Shown here in pieces: positions 30,873 to 33,816 of a stretch of DNA of 64,000 bases. The notes under the pieces are model-generated. The model searched no databases. It saw only the letters and a list, made by a program, of their open reading frames with translations, and was not told the origin of the DNA. Numbering within the stretch: the first letter of the stretch is position 1; each line of letters opens with the position of its first letter. The stretch comes from Serinibacter salmoneus (GTDB lineage Bacteria; Actinomycetota; Actinomycetes; Actinomycetales; Beutenbergiaceae). A program made the translations under genes and the position numbers. Where the stretch lies: NCBI RefSeq assembly GCF_002563925.1, contig NZ_PDJD01000001.1:2362973-2426972 (forward strand), read 5' to 3'.

Positions 30873-30996
30873 CACCGACCGTGCCCTTGCGCACACCCAC
30901 CCCCACCGACCGTGCCCTTGCGCACCCACGCCCGCGCCGAGCGTGCTCTTGCGCAGGCTCGCGGCACCGGAGCCCTGCGCAATCACACGGTCGGCG
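30873..30996. repeat. Dispersed repeat family A, cluster 1 (menC/menB gap)
   Basis: Core CCGACCGTGCCCTTGCGCA in two near-identical direct copies (30873-30893 and 30904-30924, 31-bp period). A diverged third copy (30935-30955) and one inverted copy (30976-30996) follow. The inverted pair can form a hairpin. Related copies lie at 61153-61276 and 62773-62899. Confidence 0.7.
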
Positions 30997-31037
30997 AGGG
31001 TGAGGGTGCGGTGCCGTGTGGTGTGGTGCAAGCGCAG

Positions 31038-31043
31038 TACGTT
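31038..31043 (+). promoter_or_regulatory. Leaderless -10 box (TACGTT) of menB
   Basis: TACGTT six bases before the menB GTG at 31050. Confidence 0.5.
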
Positions 31044-31049
31044 GGGGGC

Positions 31050-32000
31050 GTGAGCGAGACAGCGAGTTCCTTCGACCCCCGCCGGTGGCGCACCGTGGAG
31101 GGCTTCGACTTCACCGACATCACCTACCACCGCGGCATCGCGCCCGGTGGCGGCGAGGACACCGCCGGCCCACGCGACCTCCCGGTGGTCCGGATCGCCT
31201 TCGACCGCCCCGAGGTGCGCAACGCCTTCCGCCCCCACACGGTGGACGAGCTCTACCGCGCCCTCGATCACGCGCGGATGACCTCCGACGTGGGCGCCGT
31301 GCTGCTGACCGGCAACGGCCCCAGCCCCAAGGACGGCGGCTGGTCCTTCTGCTCCGGGGGCGACCAGCGGGTGCGTGGTCGCGACGGCTACCGGTACGCC
31401 GTCGAGGACGGCGGGGAGACCTCGGAGTCCGTGGACCCGGCGCGCGCCGGGCGCCTGCACATCCTGGAGGTGCAGCGACTGATGCGCACCATGCCCAAGG
31501 TGGTCATCGCCGTCGTGGACGGCTGGGCCGCGGGCGGCGGGCACAGCCTCAACGTGGTCGCCGACCTCTCCCTCGCCTGCCGCCAGCACGCCGCCTTCAT
31601 GCAGACGGACGCCAACGTGGGCTCCTTCGACGCCGGGTACGGTTCGGCGCTGCTGGCGCGGCAGGTCGGGGACAAGCGCGCCCGCGAGATCTTCTTCCTC
31701 GCTCGGCGCTACAGCGCCGAGGAAGCCGAGCGCTGGGGCGCCGTGAACGAGGCGGTGGACCACGACCACCTGGAGGACGTGGCGCTGCAGTATGCCGCGA
31801 CGATCGCGACCAAGTCGCCGCAGGCGATCCGGATGCTGAAGTTCGCCTTCAACCTCGCCGATGACGGCATGGCCGGTCAGCAGGTGTTCGCCGGGGAGGC
31901 CACGCGACTGGCCTACGGCACCGACGAGGCCGCCGAGGGGCGCGATGCGTTCCTGGAGCGCCGGGAACCGGACTGGAGCGGCTTCCCCTACGCCTTCTGA
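31050..32000 (+). CDS. menB: 1,4-Dihydroxy-2-naphthoyl-CoA synthase
   Basis: MenB closes the second ring of the menaquinone head group. The 316-residue crotonase-fold protein has the FDRPEVRNAFRPHTVDEL start region, the FCSGGDQRVRG oxyanion segment near residue 105, and VVDGWAAGGGHSLNVVADLSLA near 155. FDAGYGSALLARQVGDKRAREI follows near 195, as in true MenB. The GTG at 31050 follows a leaderless -10 box; longer upstream frames run through the repeat cluster and are unlikely. It is divergent from menC-menD. Confidence 0.96.
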   Translation: MSETASSFDPRRWRTVEGFDFTDITYHRGIAPGGGEDTAGPRDLPVVRIAFDRPEVRNAFRPHTVDELYRALDHARMTSDVGAVLLTGNGPSPKDGGWSFCSGGDQRVRGRDGYRYAVEDGGETSESVDPARAGRLHILEVQRLMRTMPKVVIAVVDGWAAGGGHSLNVVADLSLACRQHAAFMQTDANVGSFDAGYGSALLARQVGDKRAREIFFLARRYSAEEAERWGAVNEAVDHDHLEDVALQYAATIATKSPQAIRMLKFAFNLADDGMAGQQVFAGEATRLAYGTDEAAEGRDAFLERREPDWSGFPYAF

Positions 32001-32067: not shown

Positions 32068-32595
32068 TCAGTCCTCCACGCGCAGCAGCCATGCGCGCAG
32101 GATCCGCTCCAGCGCGGCGCGGTCGGCATCGGGAAGGTCCGCGAGCAACCGGTGCTCGTTGGCCATGTGCTCGGTGAAGGCGGCGTCGATCACCTCGCGG
32201 CCGCGGGCGGTGAGCGCGGCGTCGCGGCCGCGGCCGTCGCTCTCACTGCGGAACCGGGCCACCAGCCCGGCGCGTTCCAACCGATCCAGTCGCTTGGTGA
32301 CGGCGCCGGAGGTCACCATGGTGCGCTCCCCGATCTGGGAGCAGGACATCCGCTCGACCTGCGAGCGGCGCAGCGCGGCGAGGACGTCGAACTCGCCCTC
32401 GCCGAGGCCGTGGCGCGCGAACACCGGGGTGAGTTCGCCCTGGAGGTAGTCCGCGAGGCGGGACACCCGCCCGATCACGCCCTGCGGTGAGGGGTCCAGG
32501 TCCGGGCGGGCGCGGCGCCACTGCGCCTGGATGGAGTCCACGTGGTCACCACCGGCGTCGCCGTGCGCCGCGCCAGGCGGCCGGGTGTCGCTCAT
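32068..32595 (-). CDS. MarR-family transcriptional regulator
   Basis: A 175-residue winged-helix regulator. The recognition region is MSCSQIGERTMVTSGAVTKRLDRLERAGLVAR (about residues 84-115), followed by the wing ESDGRGRDAALTARG. It is divergent from the EamA transporter gene with only 39 bases between the two start codons. TAAGAT lies six bases before its ATG, and an ATCTTCC-CC-GGAAGAT palindrome sits between the two opposed -10 boxes. It therefore probably represses both itself and the transporter until a ligand, likely an exported compound, binds. Confidence 0.9.
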   Translation of the reverse strand: MSDTRPPGAAHGDAGGDHVDSIQAQWRRARPDLDPSPQGVIGRVSRLADYLQGELTPVFARHGLGEGEFDVLAALRRSQVERMSCSQIGERTMVTSGAVTKRLDRLERAGLVARFRSESDGRGRDAALTARGREVIDAAFTEHMANEHRLLADLPDADRAALERILRAWLLRVED

Positions 32596-32601
32596 GGATT
32601 G

Positions 32602-32607
32602 ATCTTA
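32602..32607 (-). promoter_or_regulatory. Leaderless -10 box (TAAGAT) of the MarR gene
   Basis: TAAGAT on the minus strand, six bases before the ATG at 32595. Its first base is shared with the palindrome at 32607-32622. Confidence 0.55.
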
Positions 32608-32622
32608 TCTTCCCCGGAAGAT
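32607..32622. promoter_or_regulatory. MarR operator 1, ATCTTCC-CC-GGAAGAT
   Basis: A perfect 7+7 dyad with a two-base centre. It touches the -10 box of the MarR gene at one end and that of the EamA gene at the other, so one bound dimer would block both promoters. Confidence 0.7.
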
Positions 32623-32627
32623 AGAGT
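32622..32627 (+). promoter_or_regulatory. Leaderless -10 box (TAGAGT) of the EamA gene
   Basis: TAGAGT seven bases before the ATG at 32635. Its first base is the last base of operator 1. Confidence 0.55.
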
Positions 32628-32630
32628 CCC

Positions 32631-32640
32631 TTCCATGGAA
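32631..32640. promoter_or_regulatory. MarR operator 2 candidate, TTCCATGGAA
   Basis: A perfect 10-bp palindrome with the EamA start codon at its centre, 21 bp (two turns) from the centre of operator 1. Confidence 0.45.
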
Positions 32641-33816
32641 ACATCTTCCGCGGAAACCATGCGGTGGGCCGCCATCACGGCGATCGCGCCCATCGCGTGG
32701 GGCAGCACCTACGTGGTCACCTCCTCGCTGCTCCCGGACGGTCAGCCGCTGTGGGGTGCCACCCTGCGCGCCCTGCCCGCGGGCATCCTGCTCATGCTCC
32801 TCGTGCGCACACTCCCCCGCGGGCGCTGGTGGTGGCGCGCCGCGGTCCTCGGCGTCCTCAACGTCGCGGCGTTCTTCCCGCTGATCTACCTCGCGGCGCT
32901 CCTGCTGCCCTCCTCCATGGCCTCGAGCATCATGGCCGCCGCGCCGGTCGCGATGATGGCCGCGGCGTGGGCCCTGACCGGCGTCCACCCCACCCTGCGA
33001 GCGGCCGCCGGTGCGGCCATGGGGGTGGTCGGCGTGCTCGCGATCGTGGGCGCCGCCACCACCGACACCCCCGTCCTCGGGGTCCTGGCGGCCGTGACCG
33101 CGATGGCGATGAACGCCGTCGGGGCTGTGCTCTCCCAGCGCTGGCGGGGCGAGCACGACGTGCGCACCGTCACCGCCTGGCAGGTCTCGCTCGGCGGGTT
33201 GATCCTGCTCGCCACCGCACTGCTCATCGAGGGTGCGCCGCCCGCCCTGGACGGCCCCGCCGTCGCCGGATTCGCCTACATCAGCCTCATCGCCACCGCC
33301 GTGGCCTACCTCGCCTGGTTCGGCGGCCTGCAGCGGCTGCCGGCCGCCACCGTCGGCGTGATCGGGCTGCTCAACCCCGTCACCGGGGTCCTGCTCGGCG
33401 TGCTGGTCGCGAACGAGACCCTCACGCTGCGGCAGGGCCTGGGCATCCTCGCGGTCCTCGCGGGCATCCTCATCGTCAACGTGCGCCGTCCGCACCGGGC
33501 GGTGCGACCGGCTCCCGCCGCTCAGGACACCGACATCGAGGACTCGAGCGGGAGCAGCTCCACCCAGGTCGTGCCCGGTTCGAGCAGCACCTCCTCGCCC
33601 TCGCCGTCCACCAGTTCCAGCACCTCATCGGCCGCCCCCTTGGTCCACCTCGCCTCGATGGACCGCCCGGCGGAGGCCACCAATGCCTCCCCCTCACCCT
33701 CCAGGTGGGTCACCGGGATGGGGTTGCCCGCGGGATCCACGCCGCCGTCGTTGGTCACCCGGACCCGCAGCACCACCACATTGGCGGCGGAGAGCCGCAC
33801 GTCGTCCGCCGAGTAG
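32635..33816 (+). CDS. EamA-family (DMT) membrane transporter, C-terminus antisense to the DUF3048 gene
   Basis: A small-molecule exporter of the drug/metabolite family. Ten transmembrane helices fit within residues 9-284, as two EamA repeats (APIAWGSTYVV and the second repeat near VAYLAWFGGLQRLPAATVGVIGLLNP). Family members are about 300 residues, but this frame runs on to 393. The last roughly 97 residues are a Ser/Thr/Pro-rich stretch lying antisense to the DUF3048 gene. Either the overlap is real and the tail dispensable, or a frameshift removed the natural stop. It is the presumed target of the divergent MarR regulator. Confidence 0.86.
   Translation: METSSAETMRWAAITAIAPIAWGSTYVVTSSLLPDGQPLWGATLRALPAGILLMLLVRTLPRGRWWWRAAVLGVLNVAAFFPLIYLAALLLPSSMASSIMAAAPVAMMAAAWALTGVHPTLRAAAGAAMGVVGVLAIVGAATTDTPVLGVLAAVTAMAMNAVGAVLSQRWRGEHDVRTVTAWQVSLGGLILLATALLIEGAPPALDGPAVAGFAYISLIATAVAYLAWFGGLQRLPAATVGVIGLLNPVTGVLLGVLVANETLTLRQGLGILAVLAGILIVNVRRPHRAVRPAPAAQDTDIEDSSGSSSTQVVPGSSSTSSPSPSTSSSTSSAAPLVHLASMDRPAEATNASPSPSRWVTGMGLPAGSTPPSLVTRTRSTTTLAAESRTSSAE
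32646..32655. promoter_or_regulatory. MarR operator 3 candidate, TTCCGCGGAA
   Basis: A perfect 10-bp palindrome within codons 4-7 of the EamA gene, preceded by ATC so that its left arm repeats the ATCTTCC of operator 1. Its centre is 15 bp from operator 2. Confidence 0.45.

Follow-up and report, generated by a model that had tools for sequence, protein, structure and literature searches.

A MarR-family regulator gene and an EamA/DMT-family transporter gene, arranged divergently in Serinibacter salmoneus, are read here, with a probability of about 0.8, as an autoregulated exporter switch of PecS/PecM-like type, in which a second operator would be centred on the leaderless start codon of the exporter. 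The window, i.e. the whole stretch of 64,000 nucleotides that was analysed, carries the pair about halfway along its length. Under this reading, a PecS/HucR-like MarR dimer would bind an 18-bp operator, TANCTTCC-NN-GGAAGNTA. The first copy (site 1) would lie between back-to-back leaderless promoters and overlap each -10 box at one end, so that one dimer bound there could shut off the MarR and EamA genes alike. A second dimer would occupy site 2, which lies 21 bp (two helical turns) away, and could cooperate with the first on the same face of the helix. Centred on both the transcription start and the start codon of the exporter, it would add repression to the exporter alone. Binding of a ligand would then take the protein off the DNA and allow both genes to be expressed.

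A divergent promoter with three palindromes

The regulator gene occupies positions 32068–32595 of the minus strand (ATG at 32595) and encodes 175 amino acids, among which a MarR winged-helix domain is present (Pfam PF01047, 8.4e-11, 42 bits against a cut-off of 24.6). The transporter gene runs along the plus strand from its ATG at 32635 to 33816 and scores 2.3e-36 against the EamA Pfam family (PF00892; query 32635–33576). Both are predicted to be leaderless, and their start codons point away from each other with 39 bp in between. The EamA frame remains open to 33816 and would overlap a convergent minus-strand frame, which ends at 33522, by 295 bp (33522–33816). On the other side, the pair adjoins menB (30912–32000, and neighbours; NCBIfam PRK08321, 536 bits against a cut-off of 378) within an apparent menaquinone gene cluster, the remaining neighbours being labelled MenA, MenC, MenE and a lipoprotein. 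These five proteins, cut by eye, gave no tblastn match at E 1e-8 in the flanks (1.5–3 kb) of loci L005–L117 of the set of relatives.

Three palindromes sharing a TTCC-NN-GGAA core are read from the sequence at the centres that the sequence-only reading had given. Site 1, TATCTTCC-CC-GGAAGATA, is an operator-like site at 32606–32623 (centre 32614.5) and lies between the two -10 boxes. Site 2, TTCCATGGAA (TTCC-ATG-GAA), extends from 32631 to 32640 (centre 32635.5) and contains the ATG at 32635–32637, the first and second base of this EamA start codon forming its dyad. Site 3, TTCCGCGGAA, is found at 32646–32655 (centre 32650.5), within EamA codons 4–7. The steps from centre to centre are 21 bp between sites 1 and 2 and 15 bp between sites 2 and 3. 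Palindromy extends over 18 bp in site 1 only, sites 2 and 3 being 10-bp cores. The exact core TTCCNNGGAA occurs three times in the 64-kb window, always at this promoter, against an expectation of 0.20, and none of 100 dinucleotide shuffles contained three or more. In the 3.27-Mb genome, TTCCNNGGAAGAT has three matches, all of them here (site 1 on both strands, site 3 on one), and site 1 is the sole place that matches TATNTTCCNNGGAANATA with up to two mismatches.

The predicted -10 boxes are TAGAGT for EamA (32622–32627, plus strand), 7 nt before its ATG, and TAAGAT for MarR (32607–32602, minus strand), 6 nt before its own. In each box the two leading bases are supplied by one end of site 1. 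The proposal that a single site lies between the two promoters and touches both is thus supported. A -10 box 6–7 nt before the start codon, without a Shine-Dalgarno sequence, is what a leaderless start would look like. A -35-like TTGATC (32599–32604, plus strand) lies 17 bp from the EamA -10 box and is not kept in relatives: across -36 to -31 the one strongly conserved base, A-33, forms part of the mirrored -10 box.

Conservation of the two sites

Relatives were sought with the MarR protein, without use of the DNA motif. In the bacterium's own family, all 24 of 24 genomes gave a MarR match at 1e-15 or better and the best 30 places were taken as loci; from a search of genome contigs, the best 80 of 92 relatives were kept. 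After detection of EamA by tblastn, 92 divergent MarR/EamA loci were available, namely the window, 11 loci of the same family (L009–L019) and these 80, which by their titles represent 28 named genera and 7 further records. Another 22 MarR loci (L005–L008, L020–L037) have no EamA match in their flank (mostly 1.5 kb) and were excluded from the operator counts. The peptides used for selection included part of the recognition helix, so the sample favours proteins of the same specificity, and its loci share ancestry.

Two counts were made. The frame-blind count records every exact TTCCNNGGAA in the interval running from 150 bp upstream of each EamA match to 60 bp downstream of it. The anchored count requires TTCC-RTG-GAA to have an in-frame start codon at its dyad, with 7/8 or more core bases matching, and takes the 3′-most site, a choice needed because a step of 21 bp keeps the frame and would allow site 1 to pass as the start. 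Anchoring largely builds in the AT/GT spacer and the GAA second codon; the frame-blind count serves as a check on this circularity, and it agrees.

In the frame-blind count, exact cores number none in 4 loci, one in 16, two in 69 and three in 3. Among the 88 loci with a core, the spacer of the one nearest EamA is AT in 64, GT in 21 and neither of these in 3, as compared with AT or GT in only 9 of 75 upstream cores. This nearest core falls within the open EamA frame in 85/88 loci and coincides with an in-frame ATG or GTG in 82/88, the six exceptions being the window and L103 (where site 3 is the one nearest EamA), L058, L071, L085 and L107. Two or more cores are present in 72 loci, and in 63 of these a step of 21 bp separates the last two.

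The anchored count places site 2 on an in-frame EamA start in 85 of the 92 loci, 84 of them exact, with 63 ATG and 22 GTG starts. Site 1 lies exactly 21 bp upstream in 75 of these 85 at a core of at least 6/8, 63 being exact; in the other 10 it is found at 20, 22, 23, 28 or 32 bp or is degenerate. The 21-bp spacing also holds in 53 of 62 representatives less than 80% identical to one another, and each of the 28 named genera has one or more loci with a start-codon dyad. An exact site 1 is present in 74/92 loci (71 of the 85 anchored ones at any spacing, plus L058, L071 and L107), and its spacer is of 14 kinds among the 79 loci with a site 1 core of at least 7. The sequence-only reading had named, as the case that would speak against it, conservation of the first site alone; as regards conservation this case does not hold, site 2 being exact on the start codon in 84/92 loci and site 1 exact in 74/92. 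Its proposal of a start codon embedded in an operator-like sequence is thereby well supported by conservation.

Seven of the 92 loci have no site 2 on an open in-frame start: L016–L019, L058, L071 and L107. In L071 and L107, site 1 and a leaderless-looking start are kept while site 2 is absent, and site 2 is therefore not indispensable. In L058, a MAG locus (read from 3524 in the MarR-minus orientation), both sites are kept, but the frame of the central ATG is only seven codons long and ends in an ATGA that overlaps the start of the transporter, as translational coupling or an assembly error might produce. Elsewhere, L061 (Streptomyces) carries an additional exact palindrome towards MarR, 42 bp before the EamA start codon, so that a third site repeats the 21-bp step, and L043 has a 7/8 core in the same place.

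The columns conserved beyond the cores fit two mirrored -10 boxes together with the outer arms of the operators. On the exporter side, TANNNT is found at -13 to -8 in 71 of the 85 anchored loci, the strict form being absent from 14, and single columns reach 84% (T-13), 98% (A-12) and 100% (T-8). On the opposite strand, A-33, T-29 and A-28 amount to 81%, 91% and 89%, and all three occur together in 66/85. A Shine-Dalgarno-like sequence precedes the EamA start in 0/85 anchored loci. Measured from the centre of site 1, the first in-frame MarR start is 19.5–21.5 bp away in 56 of 81 loci, and in 4/85 no start was found. Both genes thus look leaderless and mirrored around site 1. Combining the columns of both sites gives the 18-bp operator mentioned above, which relative to the exporter start would extend from -29 to -12 (site 1) and from -8 to +10 (site 2).

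A third site, probably by duplication, and a proposed constraint on the first codons

The sequence-only reading had proposed a three-site array and had looked to its conservation among orthologous gene pairs. Sites 1 and 2 are indeed conserved as a pair; for site 3, only 2 of 85 loci have a core at +15, the window and L103 (Actinosynnema pretiosum), and the array is therefore rejected as the ancestral form. In the window, an imperfect tandem repeat on the plus strand (32630–32644 and 32645–32659, thus 32630–32659) matches in 11 of 15 positions and stays in frame. The same comparison of 15 with 15 bp gives 12/15 in L103 and 0–7/15 in the other 83 loci. Site 3 is probably a lineage-specific, in-frame duplication of five codons (15 bp) containing the start-codon operator. 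Such a duplication is absent from the remaining members of both neighbourhoods and therefore probably arose twice.

A graded operator, with one MarR protein occupying sites 1, 2 and 3 one after another and repression growing at each step, is not supported by conservation, though it is the least improbable of the alternatives. All three cores are exact in the window, and a matrix built on site 1 ranks the three sites as its best places, with site 3 (17.2) above site 2 (7.6), site 1 at 29.5 and the next-best place at 3.9. There is a precedent in the PecS protein of Agrobacterium fabrum, which has a single binding palindrome at pecS and a pair of overlapping sites at pecM (PMC12288460). Against such an array stands the rarity of site 3; moreover, at a step of 15 bp two 18-bp sites would have 3 bp in common and lie on different faces of the helix, which makes their joint occupancy doubtful. 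The low rank of site 2 reflects weak outer arms, orthologous sites 2 having a median of 27.0 with the same matrix. Scored with a site-2 matrix, it reaches 24.1, as against a median of 34.0 and a minimum of 24.0 among 61 others. With a weaker site 2 than usual and a site 3 in addition, the window is an atypical member of a conserved two-site family rather than its type, and site 3 may partly replace the weakened site 2.

In the two-site reading, the first codons of the exporter would be held at the level of DNA. The second codon is GAA in 85 of the 92 pair loci (nearly forced in the 85 anchored ones), as compared with 61 of 320 Glu codons in the bodies of these genes. The third residue varies over eight amino acids, yet A is found at +10 in 94%. 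Information in the flank (-50 to -37) is mostly 0.0–0.3 bits (0.5 at -39), against about 1.2–2.0 at conserved positions of the sites.

Leaderless starts can prefer particular second codons. Site 1 might accordingly be the sole operator, with TTCC-RTG-GAA and the GAA codon serving leaderless translation or promoter escape, and L071 and L107 do retain the gene pair without site 2. This explanation is nonetheless improbable. If the transcript is leaderless, TTCC at -4 to -1 would be untranscribed, yet it is kept as the exact reverse complement of GGAA. The core is the same as that of site 1 and lies mostly 21 bp from it, and the pairs C-5/G+7 and T-8/A+10 extend the symmetry of site 2 beyond the core.

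Still less probable is a start of EamA at the in-frame ATG 32659, which follows a weak Shine-Dalgarno-like stretch (GGAAACC) and would leave sites 2 and 3 in a 5′ leader. The starts of the orthologues speak against it: the nearest palindrome coincides with an open in-frame start codon in 82/88 loci of the frame-blind count, a Shine-Dalgarno sequence is lacking in 85/85 loci, and 32659 is the final base of a repeated stretch peculiar to the window genome.

Taking these observations jointly, we lean, with less assurance than for the switch itself, towards a broader view. The start-codon-centred operator would be a durable device across actinobacteria; the operator, and not protein function, would fix the first codons of the exporter (ATG or GTG, then GAA); and operators would multiply by in-frame duplication of those codons, as here and, apparently independently, in Actinosynnema. 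A single stretch of 10 bp would then apparently act at once as operator, start of transcription, start codon and part of the coding sequence, in a widely conserved case. The free spacer of site 1 and the AT/GT spacer of site 2 separate two constraints, which makes the trade-off between binding and coding directly measurable. The motif is also specific enough for annotating this group of regulators and for checking the start codons of their exporters.

The regulator and related systems

The neighbouring MarR protein would bind these sites, as suggested by the gene pairing, by the occurrence of the sites only beside the pair in the genomes searched and by their covariation with the recognition helix. 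In samples of larger groups, the strict two-site pattern was found in 3 of 396 genomes of the phylum and 21 of 297 genomes of the order. All 24 loci fetched with the motif encode both MarR and EamA (two are the window itself, and several repeat loci already sampled); the strict pattern stands beside the pair in each fetched case, and no wider regulon was found among them. The recognition helix reads TMVTtGA.tKR in the 85 loci with TTCC sites. In L016–L019, a sister MarR/EamA pair from the same family, the palindrome is GTTGAATAGTTCAAC, the start is of Shine-Dalgarno type and the helix reads MRTSGAITNR (TNR for TKR). The 22 MarR proteins without EamA have TlVsSGTMTNR. Site 1, a conserved 18-bp palindrome and putative operator near the promoter of MarR itself, falls within the usual size of MarR-family operators (about 16–20 bp). 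The link between MarR and the sites being indirect, another transcription factor regulating the pair might bind the palindromes, but this is the least probable explanation of all, given that the strict pattern was found only beside the pair (24/24 fetched loci with both genes), that no other full site was found in the bacterium's own genome and that the motif changes along with the recognition helix in L016–L019.

By sequence, the closest solved structures to the MarR protein are 8ylf and 8ylh, followed by HucR. The urate-binding set of HucR consists of W20, D73, R106 and R118. When aligned with HucR (2fbk), the window protein places D70, R102 and R114 opposite D73, R106 and R118, as counted along the alignment; W26 was assigned by inspection only, in an N-terminal stretch outside the alignment. 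Each of the four residues is kept in 90% or more of the proteins of the TTCC group. Compared with the urate-responsive MarR proteins HucR and UrtR, however, the overall similarity to HucR is low (E 2.2e-8).

Regulatory sites close to start codons are known in other systems. The footprint of Rv0678 reaches its start codon. In Rhodobacter sphaeroides, acuR has a leaderless transcript and an inverted repeat operator that overlaps the core promoter (PMC3017554), while the leaderless nreA of Mesorhizobium has its operator at -30 to -12, between -35 and -10 (PMC12724321). Unlike site 2 here, a start-codon dyad is not described for either in the available text of these sources. Lambda cI and Tn1721 tetR are also named as leaderless (PMC3017554). 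Among actinobacterial regulators of the MarR family, CrtR of Corynebacterium glutamicum combines a leaderless gene with a divergent target (PMC5401885). Ms6508 of Mycobacterium smegmatis has a palindrome located shortly before a start codon, with no other copy found in the genome; this is a single site, protected from -35 to -7 relative to that codon and thus short of it, and the ABC transporters concerned lie in one operon instead of a divergent exporter gene (PMC4143341). A start-codon-centred operator was not found described among open-licence titles and the beginnings of abstracts, which is weak evidence of absence.

The closest known arrangement is the PecS-PecM divergon of A. fabrum, Vibrio vulnificus and Dickeya, in which a MarR regulator gene is divergent from an exporter gene and palindromes occupy the short intergenic region. 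The exporter gene pecM is of the DMT/EamA type, and loss of DNA binding in response to urate or xanthine is a characteristic of the divergon. The overlapping pair of sites in A. fabrum extends across the pecM promoter into the coding region (PMC12288460); V. vulnificus has a site 6 bp ahead of the start of pecM (PMC6391409). The PecS consensus operator is AT-rich (PMC6391409), as opposed to the TTCC-NN-GGAA core seen here, and the pair is for this reason classed as PecS/PecM-like and not as a member of that group. It differs further in that both genes look leaderless and that sites 1 and 2 are spaced by 21 bp. The new element is the dyad of site 2, centred on the start codon of the exporter.
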